A stretch of DNA of 32,325 bases from Oscillospiraceae bacterium (GCA_022769365.1 JALEJO010000047.1:1-32325); one strand, 5' to 3'; positions 8,074-32,325 are shown, counted from the first letter of the stretch. Made by a program: numbers and translations. Notes: generated from the sequence alone by a model not told the origin.

Positions 8074-9978
8074 ATGAAAATATGTAATGTAAAAAGCATT
8101 ATACCGAATAAATTTAAAGATGCTGTGAAAAATAATTTTATCACAGGTAAATTATACAGATTACATAAAAGCATAAAAACAAGAAGAGATATAAATTCTG
8201 AAAAATATAAGATGACAAATATTTTGCTTACTCTTTTATTTCCGATTTTCATAGTTTGTATGGCGGAACTTAATCAGAATAAATATCCGAGCAAGTTTAT
8301 TTTGTTTGTGGCAGAACGCCCGAACGTTATGCTTTTTAATGTTATAGTTGCATTTATGATATTTGCAGCACTATACTTTATATTAAGGCGTGGTTGGAGA
8401 GCGGTTTTTGTTCAGAGTGCTTTGTACATGACTCTCAGTACAACGGAACTTTTCAAATATAACACAAACGGCAATCACCTTACAATGCAGGATTTGTCGC
8501 TTGCAAAAAGTTTACAGAGTATAACTTCTTTTGCATATATTAAAATAACAGCCGTCCTTATAATTTATATTCTTATTTGCCTTATTTATATTGGTGCGGT
8601 TTTCTGGTTTAATCCTAAAATAAAAATGAGATGGTTCAAGGCAATTGTGCCTGCTGTTTGTTGTGCAGGTGCTTGTGCTTCAATTATGGTTGTGCCATCA
8701 TTTGGAAATAAAGTTTATGCACTTTTTGACATTGACACAAGTTCAGCTAAAAACACATTTATATTAAATGAAAAATTTAATAATAACGGTTTCCTTGCGT
8801 TCTTTATGCAGGACAGTACGGAAACAATTGAAAATGAACTTAAAGTTCCTGAAAATTACAACAAGACTTCAATTGATAACTATCTTGATGAATCTGATGA
8901 AGAAACAACTGAAAAGGAATACACAGATAACGAAGTTCAGCCGAATGTTGTTGTTATAATGTCTGAAAGTTATGCCGATTTCAGAGTTTTTGATGAACTT
9001 GGTGTAAGTGATGATTATTATAAGGGCTTTGATGCAGTATGTAATGATAAGGGAGCATATTCAGGTTATGCAATTGTTCCGACATATGCAAGTTATACTG
9101 TAAGAACTGAATTTGAACTTATGATGGGTCTTCCTGTTAAGTCTATGAATGATGCAGATATGCCGCAGAAACTTCTTTTTGACAGAAAACAGACAACAAT
9201 TCCATCATACTATAAAGCCGCAGGATACAACACAGCTTATGTTCATCCATATTTAAGCACATTCTATGGCAGAGATCATATTTATTCAAACTATAGTTTT
9301 GATAAGATGATATTTGAAGATGATTTTACAGTAAATGAAAATTATTATGGAAACTATATAGATGATGCGACAGTTTACAATCAGATAGAAGACCTTATGA
9401 AAGATTCAGATAAGCCGATGTATATTCACGCAACAACAATGCAGAATCATCAGCCTTATGATCAGGGTGCTCATCCTGATGACCAGTTTGCAAATTATCT
9501 TGACCAGATAAAGCATACAGGTGAATGCCTTGAAAATCTTATGAATGAACTCAAGGATTTTGACGAACCGACAATTGTTTTCTATATAGGCGATCACTTC
9601 CCATCACTCAGAGGCGATGACAGTGTTTATACAGAACTTGGTATAACAAGCGAAAATTGCAGCACACTTTATGAACAGCATTATGTTATCTGGTCTAATT
9701 TTGATGCAGATTACAGCAATATACCAAATGAAAAGTTCTCAACTTTCTATATGCCTTATGAACTTATGCAGATAGCAGGAATTAAAGGTGATAGTTTTAC
9801 TTCAGAAATGCTTGATAAAATAAAAACACGTCCTGTTTATTCAACAAATTATCAGCCTGATAGTCTTCCTGATGATGAACTTGATATGTTGACATACGAC
9901 AGAACGCTTGGTTCACAGCTTTCAGATAATCCTTTATCAGTTTTATATCCTGATGAAACAAATACAACAGAGAAATAA
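8074..9978 (+). CDS. LTA synthase family membrane sulfatase/phosphoglycerol transferase
   Basis: 634 aa; N-terminal TM helices, then NVVVIMSESYADFRVF, SYTVRTEFELMMGLP, HPYLSTFYGRD, FYIGDHFPSL sulfatase-fold motifs. Confidence 0.85.
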   Translation: MKICNVKSIIPNKFKDAVKNNFITGKLYRLHKSIKTRRDINSEKYKMTNILLTLLFPIFIVCMAELNQNKYPSKFILFVAERPNVMLFNVIVAFMIFAALYFILRRGWRAVFVQSALYMTLSTTELFKYNTNGNHLTMQDLSLAKSLQSITSFAYIKITAVLIIYILICLIYIGAVFWFNPKIKMRWFKAIVPAVCCAGACASIMVVPSFGNKVYALFDIDTSSAKNTFILNEKFNNNGFLAFFMQDSTETIENELKVPENYNKTSIDNYLDESDEETTEKEYTDNEVQPNVVVIMSESYADFRVFDELGVSDDYYKGFDAVCNDKGAYSGYAIVPTYASYTVRTEFELMMGLPVKSMNDADMPQKLLFDRKQTTIPSYYKAAGYNTAYVHPYLSTFYGRDHIYSNYSFDKMIFEDDFTVNENYYGNYIDDATVYNQIEDLMKDSDKPMYIHATTMQNHQPYDQGAHPDDQFANYLDQIKHTGECLENLMNELKDFDEPTIVFYIGDHFPSLRGDDSVYTELGITSENCSTLYEQHYVIWSNFDADYSNIPNEKFSTFYMPYELMQIAGIKGDSFTSEMLDKIKTRPVYSTNYQPDSLPDDELDMLTYDRTLGSQLSDNPLSVLYPDETNTTEK

Positions 9979-9990
9979 GGAGAATTTTAG

Positions 9991-10383
9991 ATGAAATTAA
10001 TTAAAACACCTGAAACTTACACTTTGACTGAAATGGTAAAAGAAGAAAATCTTGCATCAACTGTTAAAAGCGGTTCACTTGATGTTCTTGCAACACCAAC
10101 TCTTGCAGCATGGTTTGAATACGCTGCCTGCAAGCTTCTTGAAGGTTATCTTGAAGATGAAGAAACAACTGTCGGAACACTTCTTGAACTCCATCACAAC
10201 GCTCCTACAACACTTGGAGATACAGTTAAGATAGAAATAACCCTTACTGAACAAAACGGCAGAGAACTCGTTTTTGAGGCTTCTGCATTCGATTCAGCAG
10301 GTGAAGTTGCTAAATGCAGTCACAAAAGATTTATTGTGTATAAAACAAAGTTTATGGATAAGGCTAAGTCAAGAAGAGTATAA
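9991..10383 (+). CDS. Hot-dog thioesterase family protein (FlK-like)
   Basis: 130 aa; LATPTLAAWFEYAACKLLEGYL...TVGTLLELHHNAPTTLGDTVKIE pattern. Confidence 0.75.
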   Translation: MKLIKTPETYTLTEMVKEENLASTVKSGSLDVLATPTLAAWFEYAACKLLEGYLEDEETTVGTLLELHHNAPTTLGDTVKIEITLTEQNGRELVFEASAFDSAGEVAKCSHKRFIVYKTKFMDKAKSRRV

Positions 10384-19841: not shown

Positions 19842-20660
19842 ATGACAGAAACAATTATGCAGTATGTTCTTTGTTTTTATATTTATTGTTTTCTTGGCTG
19901 GTGCATAGAGTCAACAATAGTTTCAATTGAACAGAAAATGTTTGTAAACAGAGGATTTTTAAGACTGCCTATGCTTCCGCTTTATGGAAGTGGTTCAATG
20001 GTTATACTTATTATAACGCTTCCTGTCAGGGACGGCAATCCATTCTGGATATATCTCTTTGGAATGATAGGTGCAACTATTCTTGAATATATAACCGCTG
20101 TACTTATGGAAGGTATTTTTAAAACAAAATATTGGGATTATTCAAACGAAAAATATAATTTTCAGGGAAGAATATGCGTGAAAGCTTCACTTTTCTGGGG
20201 CTGTCTGTCGCTTTTCCTTGTGTATGTTGTAAATCCTCCGATACAGTCGCTTGCGGATAAAATTCCGTTCATTCCGCTTGTCATTGTTGATTCGGTTATT
20301 TCTGCTGTATTTATTGCCGATACAATTGTATCATTCAAGGCAGCATTCGATATTAACAAGGCACTTGATGTTATGACTTCAATCAGGGAAGAAGCGGCAA
20401 CTGTCAGAGAAAAAATTGAGGAGCGAATGGCTGAAAGAACTGAAAAAGTTGAGGAAAGAAAGGCTGAAAGAGCTAAAAAAGTTGATGTTGAACTTGATAA
20501 GCTTAAATACAGACTTGAAGAACTTAAAGAACAGGCAACTTTAAATGTTGCAAAACTCAGCTTAGCTGCCAAAGATATGATTAAGTCAAATCCTACAAGT
20601 TCATCAAAGAAGTTTAATGATGCACTTGCAGATTTCAAAAGAAGAATTATAAAAAAATAA
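19842..20660 (+). CDS. Membrane protein, putative ABC transporter permease (CmpB-like, PF06541 type) with C-terminal coiled coil
   Basis: FYIYCFLGWCIESTIVSIEQKMFVNRGFLRLPMLPLYGSG...WDYSNEKYNFQGRICVKASLFWG matches this family; followed by a Glu/Lys/Arg-rich coiled-coil tail. Confidence 0.8.
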   Translation: MTETIMQYVLCFYIYCFLGWCIESTIVSIEQKMFVNRGFLRLPMLPLYGSGSMVILIITLPVRDGNPFWIYLFGMIGATILEYITAVLMEGIFKTKYWDYSNEKYNFQGRICVKASLFWGCLSLFLVYVVNPPIQSLADKIPFIPLVIVDSVISAVFIADTIVSFKAAFDINKALDVMTSIREEAATVREKIEERMAERTEKVEERKAERAKKVDVELDKLKYRLEELKEQATLNVAKLSLAAKDMIKSNPTSSSKKFNDALADFKRRIIKK

Positions 20661-20675
20661 TGGGAGTTTAAAATT

Positions 20676-21809
20676 ATGAAATTAAAAATGCTTAAAAAAA
20701 TAACCGCTGTTTTCTGTACGGCTGCACTCAGTGCATCAATGCTTACTTTTGTTCCTATGAATGTTAAAGCAGCAGGTTCGGGGGATGTCAATAATGACGG
20801 AAAATCTGATTCAATTGATGCAATAAAAATACTTCAGTATTATGCAGGCTCACTTTCAGGTACAACGGTTGATATTGACAAAACAGTTGCAGACGTTAAT
20901 GGTGACGGTGCAGTTGATTCAAAAGATGCTGTTAAAATATTAAAAGATTACGCCGATTGGCTTGCCTACACAGGCGGCGGTATGTATACTTCGGTTACGT
21001 CAGTAAACTTTTCAGATGATAATGTCACAATAAACTGGTATCCTATAACTTGTACAGGTTATGAAATAGACTGCTATGATCCTTATTATGGAGAATGGGG
21101 CAACATTGCTTCAATTCCGGATTCAATACAGTCATCATATACAAGTCCAAAGTATGAGTTTGCAGGCGGTTTTCAGGGGTATAAATTCAGAATACGTGCT
21201 ATGTATTCAAATGGTGCAACCGAATACAAGGAAACAGAAAGATATTTTGATGTTGAACACGATCTTCAAAGAATAATAGATGAGTCTGATTTCAATCTTG
21301 CACAAAGAACGAATACATCAGGTAAATATTGGTCGTTTAATTCACAGACATCTGACTGGACTTCAAGAAAAGCCGTTTCAATTTCAAAAAGAGAAAGAGC
21401 AGCAATTGAAAGATTTGCAAATTCTCATTTCAAAAGCAACTGGACACCACAGCAGAAAATAGCTTACACGCTTGCGTGGATTCATACGGAAGTTGACTAT
21501 GCATATGTCGGCGAAAAATGGAACGCAATTATGAAAGGCGGCTGGGGCAATGCTGAAGCGATTTTTGACCATAAACTTGGGCAGTGTGTTCAGTATAATG
21601 GTGCTTTAGCTGAAATGATGGTTTATCTTGGATATGATAATATTTATCTTGTTCAGGGCTGGATAAATTTTGCTGATGGAAGCAGAACACAGCATTTCTG
21701 GACGGAAATAGTTATAAATGGCAAGGTTTACGAAATGGAAACAGGAAACTTAGGCAAAAATGGTACGTGGTGTGGTTTCTGCACTCCTACTGATGAAGTG
21801 AGAAATTGA
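20676..21809 (+). CDS. Secreted protein: N-terminal type I-like dockerin, FN3-like segment, C-terminal transglutaminase-like domain
   Basis: Signal peptide; GDVNNDGKSDSIDAIKILQYYAG and ADVNGDGAVDSKDAVKILKDYA duplicated Ca-binding loops; GQCVQYNGALAEMMVYLGYDN...QHFWTEIVINGKVYEMETG Cys-His-Glu/Asp arrangement. Confidence 0.82.
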   Translation: MKLKMLKKITAVFCTAALSASMLTFVPMNVKAAGSGDVNNDGKSDSIDAIKILQYYAGSLSGTTVDIDKTVADVNGDGAVDSKDAVKILKDYADWLAYTGGGMYTSVTSVNFSDDNVTINWYPITCTGYEIDCYDPYYGEWGNIASIPDSIQSSYTSPKYEFAGGFQGYKFRIRAMYSNGATEYKETERYFDVEHDLQRIIDESDFNLAQRTNTSGKYWSFNSQTSDWTSRKAVSISKRERAAIERFANSHFKSNWTPQQKIAYTLAWIHTEVDYAYVGEKWNAIMKGGWGNAEAIFDHKLGQCVQYNGALAEMMVYLGYDNIYLVQGWINFADGSRTQHFWTEIVINGKVYEMETGNLGKNGTWCGFCTPTDEVRN

Positions 21810-21864: not shown

Positions 21865-21899
21865 TGACTTATATCTAAAATCCAATGGAGGACTTAAAA

Positions 21900-22592
21900 A
21901 TGGGTATTTTTCAGAGAATAGGCGATATTTTAAAATCAAATATAAATGACCTTATAGATAAGGCGGAAGACCCTGAAAAGATGGTAAAACAAATCATACG
22001 TGATTTGCAGTCAGACGTTCAGGAAGCAACAGAAGCATATGGAAAAGCACTTGCAAGTCAGAGAATGACTCAGCGTCAGTATGAAAACGCTGTTAAACAG
22101 TCAGCTGACTGGGAAAGCAAGGCAAAGGCTGCTTTAGCGGCAGGTAATACTGAACTTGCAAAATCCGCTCTTTCAAATAAAGTGAAAACAGATGCACAGG
22201 TTGAACAGTATTCAAAAATGTGCGAAGATATTAATGCTCAGGTAAATACAATCAAGATGCAGGTCGATGCACTTAAACAGAAGCTTGATGAAGCAAAGAG
22301 CAGAGAAGCAATGCTTATTGCAAGAGCACAGATGGCTGACACAAAGAAAAATCTTGCTAAGACATCAGGTTCACTTAATACAGACAATTCTTTTGAAAAG
22401 TTCAACAGAATGGAAGAAAAAATTGCAAGAAAAGAAGCTGAAGCAGATGCTTTCGCAGAAATTTCAGGTTCAGGCAATATGCAGAATGCTGATACTTTTG
22501 AAAAACTTGAAAATGATGCAAAGGTTGATGCAGAACTTCAGCGTCTTATGAGTGAAATGAACGGAAATCAGCTTGAAATGGATAAAAACTGA
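21900..22592 (+). CDS. PspA/IM30 family membrane-stress protein
   Basis: MGIFQRIGDILKSNINDLIDKAEDPEKMVKQIIRDLQSDVQEATEAYGKALASQR; long coiled coil. GGAGGAC before ATG 21900, so the listed 21885 start is unlikely. Confidence 0.93.
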   Translation: MGIFQRIGDILKSNINDLIDKAEDPEKMVKQIIRDLQSDVQEATEAYGKALASQRMTQRQYENAVKQSADWESKAKAALAAGNTELAKSALSNKVKTDAQVEQYSKMCEDINAQVNTIKMQVDALKQKLDEAKSREAMLIARAQMADTKKNLAKTSGSLNTDNSFEKFNRMEEKIARKEAEADAFAEISGSGNMQNADTFEKLENDAKVDAELQRLMSEMNGNQLEMDKN

Positions 22593-23665: not shown

Positions 23666-26130
<2,465 letters not shown>

Positions 26131-26131
26131 T

Positions 26132-27280
26132 ATGAATATTTCATTTGATGTACTGCCGCTTATCAGTGAAAATATGTCAGGAATAGGCTATTGTCAGGCG
26201 GGTCTTGTGGGTGAGATGATACGTTCTCACCCGGAGGACCGCTATACATTTGACTATTTTTCACGAAAGAATCATGAGGTTAAGAGGAAGAGACTCGCTG
26301 CATATATGCAGGAGAACTGTTCCATTAATGAATCACATTTTTCCGGATTTTTATACAGAAGCATAATGAATATCATACCGGTGCCGTACAGCGTGTTTTT
26401 TGGAAAAAAAGCAGAGCTTACGCACTTTTTCAATTATATAGTACCGCCTTTTGTACACGGAAAAAAAGTTGTAACCATTCACGACATGGTAATCCGGGCA
26501 TATCCGGAAACTGTCCGTTTCAGAACGAAGCAGCTCCTCCTTACCGGCATGAAGAAGTCCATGAAGCGTGCAGATGTAATAATAACGGATTCAGAATTCA
26601 GCAAAAGTGAGATAATCAAATACTATCCTCAGTTTGCTGATAAGATAAAAGTCGTATACTGTGGTGTAAACACAGAAAAATTCTATCACATAGCTGACAG
26701 TGAGCGTATAGAAAAGACAAAAAAATCCCTCGGGATAGAAGGGGAGTACTTTCTGTATCTGGGAACCATCGAACCGCGAAAGAATCTCGAACGTCTTATA
26801 GAAGCATACAGAATTCTTAAGGACAGATACGGCGATGTTCCGAAACTTGTTATGGCAGGCGGAAAGGGCTGGCTTAACAGCGGTATTTACAGCAAGGTTC
26901 AGGAGCTGGGACTTGAGGAAAGTGTTCAGTTTACAAAGTATATTCCTGATGAGGATATCTGTCCTCTTATGAACGGTGCATGTGCCTTTGTGTTTCCTTC
27001 CATATATGAGGGCTTCGGTATGCCGCCCCTTGAGGCTATGGCATGCGGAGTGCCTGTGGTTTCAAGCGGAGAAGCCTCTCTTCCGGAAGTAGTAGGCGAC
27101 TGCGCCGTTATAGTCGATGCATATTCCCCTTTGTCCATTGCGGAAGGTATGTATAAAATCTACTCTGACGAGACTCTCAGAGAAAATCTGAGCAGGAGCG
27201 GTATGGAAAGAGCGGCGGAGTTTACATGGAACAGATTTTCTGAAAAGCTTCACGGAATATATGAGGAAGTACTGGGATGA
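26132..27280 (+). CDS. GT4-type glycosyltransferase
   Basis: 382 aa; YLGTIEPRKNLERLIEAYRIL, FVFPSIYEGFGMPPLEAMACGVPVVSSGEASLPEVVGD. Confidence 0.92.
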   Translation: MNISFDVLPLISENMSGIGYCQAGLVGEMIRSHPEDRYTFDYFSRKNHEVKRKRLAAYMQENCSINESHFSGFLYRSIMNIIPVPYSVFFGKKAELTHFFNYIVPPFVHGKKVVTIHDMVIRAYPETVRFRTKQLLLTGMKKSMKRADVIITDSEFSKSEIIKYYPQFADKIKVVYCGVNTEKFYHIADSERIEKTKKSLGIEGEYFLYLGTIEPRKNLERLIEAYRILKDRYGDVPKLVMAGGKGWLNSGIYSKVQELGLEESVQFTKYIPDEDICPLMNGACAFVFPSIYEGFGMPPLEAMACGVPVVSSGEASLPEVVGDCAVIVDAYSPLSIAEGMYKIYSDETLRENLSRSGMERAAEFTWNRFSEKLHGIYEEVLG

Positions 27281-28401
27281 AGATACTTCAGGTAAATAAA
27301 CTCTACAGTCCGCATATAGGCGGTATAGAGCGTGTTATTCAGGATATTTCAGAGGGCCTTTCAGATCGTTATGACATAGAAGTTCTTGTTTGTCAGCCAA
27401 AGGGCAGGACGGCGGACGAGGTGGTAAACGGTATAAAAGTCAGGCGTTCGGGAAGTATAGGAACATACTTTTCAATGCCGGTATCAATTCCGTTTCTGTT
27501 CCATTTCAGAAAGATGGCCCGGGCAGCGGATATAGTACATGTTCATCTGCCCTTTCCTCTCGGTGATCTGGCTTGTCTTTTGTCCGGATACAAGGGTAAG
27601 GTGGTTGTAAGCTGGCACAGCGATATAGTCAAGCAGAAGAAACTTATGACTTTCTACAGGCCGGTTATGAATGCTTTTCTGAAGAGAGCGGACTGCATCT
27701 TTGTGGCTACAGAGGGACATATCAAAGGTTCCTGTTATCTTAAGCCGTATGCTGAAAAATGCAGGATAGTGCCTTACGGAATAGATACCGGGGCATATGA
27801 AAAAGCCGAAAAATATCCTTTTCTCACAGATAAGCTCAGCTGCAGAAGCAGTAAAAAAATACTTTTTACCGGACGCCTTGTATACTACAAGGGCATAGAT
27901 GTACTTATCAGAGCAATGAACCGCACAACAGACTGCGAGCTTTTCATTGCCGGAGACGGTGTGCTTCGTGATGAACTTCTGAAGGAAGTTAAAAAGGCGG
28001 GAACTGAGGAAAGAATTCACTTTATGGGAGTGCTTTCGGACAGAGACCTGAAAGCAGCATTCAGCGACTGTGACATATTTGTTCTGCCCTCTGTGGCAAG
28101 CAGTGAGGCATTCGGTATAGTGCAGATGGAGGCTATGGTATACGGAAAACCGGTTATAAACACGGATCTTCCTACAGGTGTGCCCTATGTAAGTCCTGAC
28201 GGATACAGCGGAATAACGGTTCCGCCGGGAGATGAGGAAAAGCTTGCTGAGGCAATTGAAAATCTTGTTCACGATAATGAACTGCGTGAACAGTATGGTA
28301 AAAACGCATATTCTCTCGTAAGAGAAAAGTACGAAATGAACATAGTTAATGATAAGATAAGCAATATATACGAGGAACTTGCAGGAAAGGCGGGAAAGTA
28401 A
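27277..28401 (+). CDS. GT4-type glycosyltransferase
   Basis: 374 aa; KLYSPHIGGIERVIQDIS, ILFTGRLVYYKGIDVLIRAM, DIFVLPSVASSEAFGIVQMEAMVYGKPVINTDL; ATGA overlap with previous gene. Confidence 0.92.
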   Translation: MKILQVNKLYSPHIGGIERVIQDISEGLSDRYDIEVLVCQPKGRTADEVVNGIKVRRSGSIGTYFSMPVSIPFLFHFRKMARAADIVHVHLPFPLGDLACLLSGYKGKVVVSWHSDIVKQKKLMTFYRPVMNAFLKRADCIFVATEGHIKGSCYLKPYAEKCRIVPYGIDTGAYEKAEKYPFLTDKLSCRSSKKILFTGRLVYYKGIDVLIRAMNRTTDCELFIAGDGVLRDELLKEVKKAGTEERIHFMGVLSDRDLKAAFSDCDIFVLPSVASSEAFGIVQMEAMVYGKPVINTDLPTGVPYVSPDGYSGITVPPGDEEKLAEAIENLVHDNELREQYGKNAYSLVREKYEMNIVNDKISNIYEELAGKAGK

Positions 28402-28402
28402 A

Positions 28403-29347
28403 ATGAAAGCACTTGTTATCGGTGCGGCCGGATTTGTAGGCGGCCATCTTATAAGGCATCTTGCCTGTGAATGTGGTTTCAGCGTGTATGCGACAAAGCT
28501 TGCACATGAGAGCCTTGAAACTCCGGATGCTGAAATATATAATCTCGATATTCTTGATGCGGAGGCTGTGGCTGAACTCCTTGAAAAAATAAAGCCGGAT
28601 CAGATTTACCATCTGGCAGCACAGAGTTCGGTAAAGCTGTCATGGGACAAACCTCAGCTTACCGCTGATATAAACATAAAGGGAACGATTAATGTTCTTG
28701 AAGCTGTAAGAAATTCAGGTTACTCCCCTGAAGTTCTTCTTGTAGGTTCAGGTGAAGAGTACGGTTATCTTAAGCCGGAGGAGATACCGGTAAAGGAGGA
28801 TACCCTTCTTCGTGCCGGAAATATTTATGCGGCTACAAAGGCCTGTCAGGGAATGCTTGGAGAGATATATGCCAGAGCATACGGAATGAATGTAATCATG
28901 GTTCGTGCATTTAACCATATAGGACCGGGACAGTCGGATATATTTGTTATTTCAGACTTTTGCAGACAGGTTGTTATGGCTGAACTCGGAAAGAAGGAAC
29001 CGGTTCTCAGTGTCGGTAACCTTGAAGCTGAACGTGACTTTACCGATGTACGTGATATTGTAAGAGCGTACTCTGCTCTTATGAAGGACGGAAAACCGGG
29101 GCAGACGTATAACGTTGGCAGCGGCAGAGCGGAAAGCATACGCAGCATGCTTGACAGAATACTGAAAAAATCATCAGTAAGCATAGAGGTTGTACAGGAC
29201 AGCTCGCGGATGAGACCGAGTGATGTGCCTTCAATTGCTGCTGATATAACGAGAATAAAGGAAGATACCGGATGGTGTCCTGAGATACCTATTGACAGTA
29301 CGATAGACGATATTATGGAATACTGGAGACTAAAGGAGAAATCATGA
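28403..29347 (+). CDS. NAD-dependent epimerase/dehydratase, probable GDP-4-keto-6-deoxy-mannose reductase (RMD-like)
   Basis: VIGAAGFVGGHLIRHLA, HLAAQSSVKLSWDKP, GSGEEYG, YAATKACQ, RAFNHIGPGQSDIFVISDFCRQV. Confidence 0.85.
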   Translation: MKALVIGAAGFVGGHLIRHLACECGFSVYATKLAHESLETPDAEIYNLDILDAEAVAELLEKIKPDQIYHLAAQSSVKLSWDKPQLTADINIKGTINVLEAVRNSGYSPEVLLVGSGEEYGYLKPEEIPVKEDTLLRAGNIYAATKACQGMLGEIYARAYGMNVIMVRAFNHIGPGQSDIFVISDFCRQVVMAELGKKEPVLSVGNLEAERDFTDVRDIVRAYSALMKDGKPGQTYNVGSGRAESIRSMLDRILKKSSVSIEVVQDSSRMRPSDVPSIAADITRIKEDTGWCPEIPIDSTIDDIMEYWRLKEKS

Positions 29348-32265
29348 AAAAAACGATAGCATTTATTACAGCACTGCTTGTAACAGCCTCATATGGCAAT
29401 GCAGTGTTTGCCGCTGAAAACGACAGCCCAGCTGAAACTGAAGTTTCACAGACAGAGGCTGTATCTGAAGAAAAAGATGAGGCCTCTGAAGGACAGAACG
29501 GAGGTTCTGATGAAACAGGGAACGGTTCGGAAGAAGAAACAGTTCAGACAGAGCCTGATAAACAGCCTGGTGAAATTACGGAAAGTACTGAAGAATCTGA
29601 ACCGGAAAACAATGATGAATCTGTAAATGATGAAAATACAGATGAAGGCGAGACTGAAGCTCATCCTTCTGAAGAAGAGAAATTTACTGAAGAGGAGTTT
29701 ATAAAGCGAATCTATCGCATTGCCCTTGAAAGAGAGGCAGATGAAGGCGGTCTTGCAACATGGAAGGGACACCTTGATTCAGGAAGAATGACAGCAGCGG
29801 ATGTTGTAAGATGTATTGTTTCAAGTAATGAATATAGTAAAAAGGAAAAAACCGATGAAGAATTCGTTCAGATGGTATGGATTCTTATGACCGACAGCGA
29901 GTACAGTGATGAAGCTGCCGCACAGATGACAGGGAGACTGGCCGCAGGATACTCAAGAACTGAGATTCAGAGAGTGCTTGAGAGCAGCAGAAGCTTTACT
30001 GAACTGTGCAGCAGATACGGCATTGAACGAAGCGGCAGATACGTGCATGATGATCTGAAAAAATTTGCCGGTTTCCTTACTGAAGGTGAGTATGAGCAGG
30101 AAATGCTTGTATGGAAACTTCAGGATAAAAACATAAGTGCATCAGAACTTCTGGAGGACTACTACACAAGGAAAACCTACCCTTTCGATGAAGAAGGTAT
30201 AAGGGAATATGTTTCTGATATGTACACAACGGTTCTTGTAAGAGACGAAGTTCCGGAGTCAGGACTTGAACATTGGAGCAGATATCTGAGATACGGTATG
30301 AGCAGCAGATTTGTTCTCAGAGGATTTGTAATGTCTGAGGAATTCAGAAGCAAATGCAGCCTCTGGGAAATAAACAGCGGAGTCATCACTGTAAATGAAA
30401 ACAGGGATATGAATGCCGGTGTAACAGAATTTGTCCAGAGGATATACAATATCTGTCTTGGCAGGAGAGCTGATGTAAACGGGCTTAATACCTGGACCGG
30501 ACACATTAATTCCGGTAGGATGACAGCCTCTGATGTTGTGAAGTCGATTGTTTTCAGTCCGGAGTATAAGTCCCGTAATTCTTCTGATGAGGAATATGTC
30601 AGAATGCTTTTTAGCCTTCTGAAAGATACAGAAGCCAGTGATGCTGAAGTAAGTGAATTTATATCTGAAACACTCGGAAAGGGACATACCCGCGAATCTG
30701 TTTTGAGAAAATTCGGACTTTCCGAAGAATTTACACGCATGTGCGCTGACTTCGGAATCGAACGTGGTGAGATAAAGGTCGGCGGCTGGTCGAGAAACGA
30801 CGGAGGCTTTAAGTGCTATATCAGTCCTGAGACCGGTCTCATGGCGACCGGTGTCCAGATGTTAGGGGACATTCACTGCTTTTTCGACAATGAGGGTTCA
30901 CTTCGTACCGACTGGAGTGATCTTAAAACATTTGTTGACACATCAGATACTCTCTATTCATATAACAGCATGGTTGAAGATATCACAGGTCTTCAGCAGC
31001 AGTATTCATCGCTTGTCAGTGTAAGCGTTATCGGCTCTACAGCTGACGGACGTCAGATTTATGATATGATGATAGGTTCTTCTGATGCCAAAAGGCAGAT
31101 CGTCATTCAGGCAGGCTGTCATGCAAGGGAGTATATGACAAGTCAGGTTCTTATGGCAAATGCAGAAAGATTCCTTAAGAATTACTGGAGCGGTTCCTAT
31201 GCCGGAAAATCCTACAGTGAGCTGCTTGACAGTTACTGCATACATATCATTCCTATGCTTAACCCTGACGGAATAACTCTTTCACAGTATGGTATAAACG
31301 GAATAAACAATCCTTCAGTTAAGGCACGTATAAGAAATATTTACAATAAGGATCTGAGAGAAGGTGTTACATCCCGCAGTTTCGACTCATACCTCAGGTC
31401 GTGGAAGTGCAATGCACTGGGAGTTGACCTTAACAGAAACTTTGACTCTGACTGGGCAGGACAGAATGAGATAAAAAGACCAAGCTGTTCGGGATATGCA
31501 GGAGCTTCAGCTGCTTCGGAAAATGAAGTTAAGGCACTGACAGGACTTGTTGAATCACTCAGTGATGTTCAGGCTGTTGTGAGCTACCATTCATCAGGCT
31601 CATGCGTTTACTGGGCATACCATCAGACCGGAGAATTCAGAAGCGTATGTAATAAAATGGCTTCGGATCTTGGTTCGCTCACAGGTTACTATCTTATAAA
31701 CAGTGATGACAGGGGCGGCGGATGCAGCAACTGGGTCGCAGGAAAGGGATTAAGAGCGGCTACCCTTGAGATAGGTTCAGGTGATTCTCCGCTTCCGCTT
31801 TCACAGTTTTCGGACATATACGAAAGACACAGAAACGTCATTCCTTATCTTCTGAGCATGCCGCTTTACAACGCAAAGGAAATTCAGCATAAAAATAATG
31901 CTGCAGAGTATGTCAGACATCTCTATAACACAATTCTGAGCAGAGAACCTGATGAAAACGGATGGAAGTTCTGGATTGAGAGAATAAATAACGGAAAAAG
32001 TACTCCGGCGGATGAAATCCGGCTTTTTACCGAAAGTACTGAATTCATGAATCATGGATATTCCGATGAGGAATTTATAGGAATTGCATATGAGGCGTTC
32101 TGCAGACGCCGTCCTTCTGATGAAGAGATTTCACAGAATCTTTCCTCACTCGGAGAAGGTTACACAAGGTCATGGATACTCAGCAGACTTGCACATTCAG
32201 ATGAATTCAGGGCTATGTGTGAAGAATACAGCATTTCGGGCGGAGAGGTTACTGTCAGAAACTGA
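29344..32265 (+). CDS. Secreted multidomain M14 zinc carboxypeptidase with DUF4214 repeats and a choline-binding-like repeat
   Basis: Signal peptide; acidic low-complexity linker; DUF4214-like repeats (FIKRIYRIALEREADEGGLATWKGHLDSGRMTAADVVRCIVSSNEYS etc.); TGLMATGVQMLGDIHCFFDNEGSLRTDW; M14 motifs GCHARE, NPDG, DLNRNF, SYHSSG, TLEIG. Confidence 0.88.
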   Translation: MKKTIAFITALLVTASYGNAVFAAENDSPAETEVSQTEAVSEEKDEASEGQNGGSDETGNGSEEETVQTEPDKQPGEITESTEESEPENNDESVNDENTDEGETEAHPSEEEKFTEEEFIKRIYRIALEREADEGGLATWKGHLDSGRMTAADVVRCIVSSNEYSKKEKTDEEFVQMVWILMTDSEYSDEAAAQMTGRLAAGYSRTEIQRVLESSRSFTELCSRYGIERSGRYVHDDLKKFAGFLTEGEYEQEMLVWKLQDKNISASELLEDYYTRKTYPFDEEGIREYVSDMYTTVLVRDEVPESGLEHWSRYLRYGMSSRFVLRGFVMSEEFRSKCSLWEINSGVITVNENRDMNAGVTEFVQRIYNICLGRRADVNGLNTWTGHINSGRMTASDVVKSIVFSPEYKSRNSSDEEYVRMLFSLLKDTEASDAEVSEFISETLGKGHTRESVLRKFGLSEEFTRMCADFGIERGEIKVGGWSRNDGGFKCYISPETGLMATGVQMLGDIHCFFDNEGSLRTDWSDLKTFVDTSDTLYSYNSMVEDITGLQQQYSSLVSVSVIGSTADGRQIYDMMIGSSDAKRQIVIQAGCHAREYMTSQVLMANAERFLKNYWSGSYAGKSYSELLDSYCIHIIPMLNPDGITLSQYGINGINNPSVKARIRNIYNKDLREGVTSRSFDSYLRSWKCNALGVDLNRNFDSDWAGQNEIKRPSCSGYAGASAASENEVKALTGLVESLSDVQAVVSYHSSGSCVYWAYHQTGEFRSVCNKMASDLGSLTGYYLINSDDRGGGCSNWVAGKGLRAATLEIGSGDSPLPLSQFSDIYERHRNVIPYLLSMPLYNAKEIQHKNNAAEYVRHLYNTILSREPDENGWKFWIERINNGKSTPADEIRLFTESTEFMNHGYSDEEFIGIAYEAFCRRRPSDEEISQNLSSLGEGYTRSWILSRLAHSDEFRAMCEEYSISGGEVTVRN

Positions 32266-32297
32266 CGGATATTCATCTTCGGAAGAACAGAAATATA

Positions 32298-32325
32298 GTG
32301 AACGAAAAAATATTTTTTCGTTCAC
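32298..32325. terminator. 28-bp perfect palindrome, probable bidirectional terminator, at the window edge
   Basis: GTGAACGAAAAAAT / ATTTTTTCGTTCAC, 14-bp perfect arms, 32 nt after the carboxypeptidase stop. Confidence 0.6.

Follow-up and report, generated by a model that had tools for sequence, protein, structure and literature searches.

Two questions are raised by the locus described here: why a secreted zinc peptidase flanked by DUF4214 repeats should be encoded directly behind genes for the making of a glycan, and whether the genome in which it was encountered is its proper home. The window—that is, the whole stretch of 32,325 nucleotides analysed—is the entire contig C153 of a 2.0-Mb, 157-contig draft genome of a gut bacterium from genus g1. 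The matter bears on DUF4214 itself, which domain is almost unstudied, although a likely role in surface anchoring has been ascribed to it in segmented filamentous bacteria (SFB; PMC12780176); an operon that makes both a glycan and a DUF4214-tethered enzyme provides a direct candidate for the DUF4214 ligand.

Domain Organization of the DUF4214/M14 Protein

The open reading frame (ORF) at 29344–32265 on the plus strand, whose coordinates and frame an earlier note on this DNA had given exactly, encodes a protein of 973 aa, identified by the ORF itself and its Pfam matches and having a near-identical gene in a g97 genome. As that note had also described, a Sec signal peptide, judged by eye (residues 1–23, with NAVFA before and AEN after the cleavage site; 29344–29412), and an acidic linker (residues 24–112; 29413–29679), which contains 34 D/E and 2 K/R among its 89 residues, precede several DUF4214 units, these forming an N-terminal array (residues 113–475; 29680–30768; PF13946). 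The Peptidase_M14 domain (residues 536–830; 30949–31833), recognized by Pfam and by its motif residues, comes next, and the further DUF4214 unit noted behind it is, according to Pfam, a pair (residues 848–966; 31885–32241). All these features lie on the plus strand. In the HMM scan that had been suggested as a check, both DUF4214 (E 2.6e-57, 191.2 bits vs. a cut-off of 23.2, in six stretches, the protein having at least six units) and Peptidase_M14 (residues 545–764; E 1.5e-37, 130.2 bits vs. a cut-off of 21.6) scored far above threshold, whereas the cell-wall-binding repeat went unmatched, no choline-binding or cell-wall-binding repeat (PF01473, PF19127) exceeding its cut-off in the window protein. 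The lone repeat of that kind claimed at residues 497–524 (30832–30915, plus strand) is nevertheless a degenerate member of the choline-binding-like repeats, since in homologues the corresponding segment is closer to the canonical form, although in the homologue L007 such repeats are likewise below the cut-off. Choline binding as the anchor of the protein was ruled out, there being just this one degenerate repeat. In a comparison of two g97 species the dN/dS was about 0.09–0.11 for the M14 domain and for both DUF4214 parts, because of which the fused gene is under purifying selection and chance is not at issue.

Catalytic Residues of the M14 Domain

The four M14 motifs to which attention had been drawn are all present: the zinc ligands H593 and E596 (HARE) and H749 (SYHSSG); the carboxylate clamp N697–R698 (DLNRNF), whose Asn-Arg pair holds the C-terminal carboxylate; and E809 (LEIG), the catalytic Glu or general base. 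As far as residues can tell, the catalytic completeness of the enzyme is supported. The HxxE...H zinc site, the N-R clamp, and the catalytic Glu are shared with the carboxypeptidases A, B, and T (CPA, CPB, and CPT; family M14), the nearest solved relatives, carboxypeptidase B being matched as a PDB profile at E 4.8e-21. From those enzymes the window protein differs in possessing K688 at CPA position 127 (Arg in CPA; assigned by motif reading), a Ser by alignment at the specificity position 255, unlike the digestive enzymes, and flanking DUF4214 arrays, and in having no recognised activation propeptide. Since the W-K motif is common to most of the stand-alone M14 relatives examined, K688 looks like a trait of this M14 group and not a loss. 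AlphaFold returned a pLDDT of 35 for the M14 part from an alignment of three sequences, which are too few, and a low-confidence, all-helical DUF4214 array (pLDDT 44), again from three sequences only.

Neighboring Genes and Provenance of the Window DNA

Upstream of the ORF, likewise on the plus strand, profile matches identified a Bac_transf undecaprenyl-phosphate sugar transferase in the window genome's own version (23666–25072), the GT4 glycosyltransferases GT_c (26132–27280) and GT_d (27277–28401), and an RMD-like GDP-6-deoxy-hexose reductase (28379–29347), while a GDP-mannose 4,6-dehydratase (GMD) occupies 25096–26130. The ATG of the ORF overlaps the stop codon of RMD (ATGA, 29344–29347), as the earlier note had read it. 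The sugar of the glycan would be a GDP-6-deoxy-hexose, probably GDP-D-rhamnose, the GMD and RMD being assigned by family matches only and the GMD intermediate leading to other sugars too.

In the core loci of g1 and g97 that we read, ManC usually separates Bac_transf from GMD; in the window it is absent there (25072–25096). The window's PspA/IM30 gene (21885–22592) precedes Bac_transf, and in g1 relatives PspA comes after RMD in this core locus.

The GMD gene is a hybrid. When aligned with L008 from the g97 genome G917, its first 657 bases (25096–25752) contain 118 mismatches (82% identity) and its last 378 (25753–26130) none, so that a breakpoint can be placed at 25752/25753, with low-GC DNA on the left (GC 0.333) and g97 DNA on the right (GC 0.437). 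From 25753 to the contig end we counted 21 mismatches in 6573 bases, that is, 99.7% identity to L008, even though the pyruvate kinases of G917 and the window genome share only 70% identity. The contig stops 60 bp past the ORF's stop codon in the hairpin of a dispersed repeat. This repeat, a MITE-like inverted-repeat element with other copies in g97 loci, related ones being in L055 and L251, is 135 bp long and complete in L008 (12951–13085), and only its initial 32 bp are in the window (32294–32325). The fused DUF4214/M14 gene was absent from all 15 further g1 genomes searched. In 13 g1 loci that we read, the Bac_transf-ManC-GMD-GT-GT-RMD core was present as far as contigs and the ORF caller show, with no DUF4214/M14 gene behind RMD, which is usually followed by a protein of 150–220 aa and then by PspA. 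Because of the 99.7% identity to a g97 genome, the GC step, and the absence from the other g1 genomes, the segment from 25753 to the end is of g97 origin: the fused gene in the window lies on g97 DNA, which meets the g1 part of the contig within GMD.

As to how that junction arose, we lean slightly toward an assembly chimera, which we rate as a little better than an even bet and under which the window's organism would lack the gene altogether. The abruptness of the switch within a conserved gene, the near-identity over 6573 bp with a genome so distant in its pyruvate kinase and different in GC content, the lack of the gene in the g1 relatives, and the termination of the contig in a g97-type repeat all speak for that explanation; but the displaced genes, when looked for in the bin by their g1 versions, did not occur there a second time, as a real replacing transfer would predict, and a very recent transfer by recombination in GMD, bringing in the g97 segment, accordingly retains a chance not far below even. 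A low-GC contig with Wzm/Wzt (C102) was considered as proof of chimerism and rejected, for the g1 relatives G009 and G011 also split their export genes from the core locus. The window's genome is probably not the native home of the fused gene, and the window illustrates how a cluster can end up in the wrong genus when contigs are joined within a conserved gene.

Context of the Fused Gene in Genus g97

All 11 g97 genomes had a match to the window protein, 7 of them in the DUF4214-fused form and 4 only as a free M14 protein of 520 aa. In every readable g97 locus with the fused gene (6/6: L007, L008, L046, L055, L245, and L246), this gene lies directly behind RMD, within the order Bac_transf-ManC-GMD-GT-GT-RMD-fused gene and, farther on, Wzm; the seventh copy, in G305, is alone on its contig, and another G305 contig begins at the expected next gene. 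The ATGA overlap is kept in five of the six, the exception being L245 (G911), a 4-contig assembly with the gene in the same position, where 261 bp separate it from RMD. The association with sugar-nucleotide and glycosyltransferase genes that the earlier note had seen in the window is, then, repeated throughout these loci. The genes downstream vary—Wzm-Wzt directly in L055, coil173-GT_a-GT_b-Wzm elsewhere—and because the position is kept while the neighbors change, we have good evidence for a functional tie to the glycan locus; this linkage in g97 is genuine. Wzm and Wzt occur together with glycosyltransferase and sugar-nucleotide genes in one locus in L007, L008, L055, and L246, the window contig ending before any Wzm/Wzt. 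The ORF caller takes the longest frame and misses genes, among them the DUF4214 ORFs of L043 and L059, which loci were left out of the evidence.

A neighborhood survey distinguished between two situations. Homologues that are widespread but never near glycan genes, the pattern regarded beforehand as adverse to a link with the cluster, are what we found for the DUF4214-free M14 subfamily, whose members sit beside unrelated genes; the DUF4214-fused form does not conform to that pattern, and M14 occurred only in the operon form in our collection of DUF4214 ORFs. The DUF4214/M14 fusion is a new architecture of known parts, conserved in g97. With the ABC transporter-dependent glycan loci of E. coli O9a and the Klebsiella O antigens, of the GDP-D-rhamnose-type pathway, these loci share ManC, GMD, RMD, GT4 enzymes, and Wzm/Wzt; they differ in their Ruminococcaceae host and in the presence of a secreted peptidase in the operon. 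The g97 Wzt, moreover, is short (245 aa), the ABC ATPase being its sole Pfam domain, unlike the O-antigen Wzt, which bears an attached carbohydrate-binding module (PMC11231755).

Among the sister species the architecture varies. A C39-like peptidase is added in five of the seven fused proteins (L007, L046, L060, L245, and L246), and four of them combine in a single protein a decayed M14 copy, the C39-like peptidase, and a second, intact M14 (L046, 8967–13265; L060, 1–4278; L245, 10061–14443; L246, 7314–11513). The first M14 of L046 has lost the HxxE, the N-R pair, and E270, that of L060 reads alike, and the N-R motif is gone from the first copies of L245 and L246. The form present in the window and L008 stops where the 135-bp repeat element stands, which element occupies the position of the C39 half seen in L007.

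Past the transporter in L007, a GH16 glycosidase with a CBM_4_9 and a lipoprotein-like start is encoded at 20014–21483; this gene is conserved in L008 and L130.

Proposed Function and Alternatives

On balance we favor, with some reserve, the reading of the protein as an envelope-held zinc carboxypeptidase produced alongside a glycan that an ABC transporter exports, this glycan being its candidate anchor. The enzyme would be secreted by Sec and stay in the cell envelope, where the DUF4214 arrays at both of its ends may retain it at the surface and the M14 domain, a putative peptidase, would trim C-terminal residues from surface peptides or proteins, a C39-like cysteine peptidase being fused behind M14 in sister species. 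Its translation is predicted to be coupled to that of the genes behind a glycan of the GDP-6-deoxy-hexose type (probably GDP-D-rhamnose), whereby enzyme and glycan would be made together; the Wzm/Wzt ABC transporter would export the latter, which is the most natural choice as a candidate ligand of DUF4214, direct binding being speculative. Processing of the cluster's polysaccharide by the fused protein, as the earlier note had entertained, was rejected, since M14 and C39-like are both peptidase families; that note's interpretation is borne out in part, as regards a secreted, catalytically complete M14 enzyme and its coupling to the glycan locus.

Another role within the envelope would be that of a peptidoglycan enzyme, with M14—along with the C39 and the cell-wall-binding-like repeats of its relatives—trimming stem peptides at the points of attachment of the new glycan. 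Such a role agrees with a weak, partial similarity to the murein tripeptide amidase MpaA (PRK10602; E 1.2e-5), with the occurrence of GH25 muramidase and amidase_3 on other DUF4214 proteins, and with the Ser at position 255; but the window protein, despite sharing the M14 core motifs, scores 24.5 against the MpaA equivalog cut-off of 157, its nearest solved relatives are CPA, CPB, and CPT, and the intact N-R clamp also exists in ordinary carboxypeptidases, so that we regard this role as unlikely, if deserving of attention. Somewhat less probable still is a general role in nutrition, with the carboxypeptidase lying in the operon by coincidence and its DUF4214 units doing no more than retaining it at the surface. 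M14 without DUF4214 is indeed common (a match in 66 of 299 family genomes at E ≤ 1e-20), close relatives of that type adjoin unrelated genes, and four g97 species have the 520-aa free form only; all fused copies with readable context, however, occupy the same place in the glycan locus, ATGA-coupled in five of the six. Finally, the M14 module could be mainly a binding domain in which catalysis is dispensable, as the decayed first copies of L046, L060, L245, and L246 might suggest; yet every one of those proteins retains an intact second M14, and the window protein has all the catalytic residues in a constrained domain, which leaves this last option highly doubtful.

Distribution and Possible Ligand of DUF4214

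DUF4214 is uncommon, having been found in 17 of 299 genomes of the family sample and in 5 of 341 of the class sample. When 39 other DUF4214 proteins were scanned, the partners were LRR, transglutaminase, GH25, GDSL, CAP, GH5, and amidase_3; because such varied extracellular domains are attached to it, we describe DUF4214 as an exchangeable general surface module, as expected for anchoring. The window protein resembles the DUF4214 surface proteins of Clostridia, SFB included (PMC12780176), in its signal peptide, its DUF4214 repeats, and its one exchangeable extracellular domain, and differs from them in that the passengers here are M14 and C39 and the gene is encoded in a glycan operon.

A Wzm-like exporter was present in 16 of the 17 DUF4214 genomes of the family sample vs. 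140 of the 282 others (Fisher p 0.0002) and, when counted by genus, in 9/10 vs. 63/116 (p 0.027), relatedness being corrected to genus level only. The rule that DUF4214 means Wzm/Wzt was nonetheless rejected, for two DUF4214 genomes of the class-level sample, G807 and G641, gave no Wzm match. Because of these Wzm-free genomes and the many DUF4214 genes that sit away from glycan loci, a fixed tie between DUF4214 and glycans is not general.

Small cytosolic proteins with a weak DUF4214-like unit are encoded just upstream of the GT_b/Stealth-like gene in L044 (3702–4223), L121 (8532–8996), L056 (5415–5921), L122 (14665–15168), L123 (7989–8462), and L058 (9619–9963), DUF4214 remaining below the cut-off in all six tested (E 8.7e-5 to 0.15). 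A segment like the unit of these small proteins forms the tail of GT_a in L007 and L008 and a separate frame in L245; Pfam gave no support for DUF4214 in the GT_a tail alone, the similarity being to the small proteins only. In L049, furthermore, a 643-aa protein (8338–10269) beside Wzt-Wzm-RMD-ManC combines an above-cut-off DUF4214 with a methyltransferase domain and, as a lead only, may be a chain terminator like WbdD, the parallel being with the terminator of O antigens (PMC3482155, PMC11231755). The weak DUF4214 of the six small proteins and this L049 protein beside Wzm-Wzt-RMD-ManC lead us to put forward, as an improbable idea, that DUF4214 might recognize the 6-deoxy-hexose glycans exported by ABC transporters, and do so both inside and outside the cell membrane: next to the glycosyltransferases as part of small cytosolic proteins and terminator-like enzymes, and externally as an anchor by which peptidases, transglutaminase-like proteins, and other enzymes dock onto the completed glycan.

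Transglutaminase-like DUF4214 proteins were also observed on the margins of two additional glycan loci (L056, 8528–10327; L057, 9347–11155), transglutaminase accounting for four matches in the scan of 39 proteins and the assignment to these two loci having been made by reading of the sequence.
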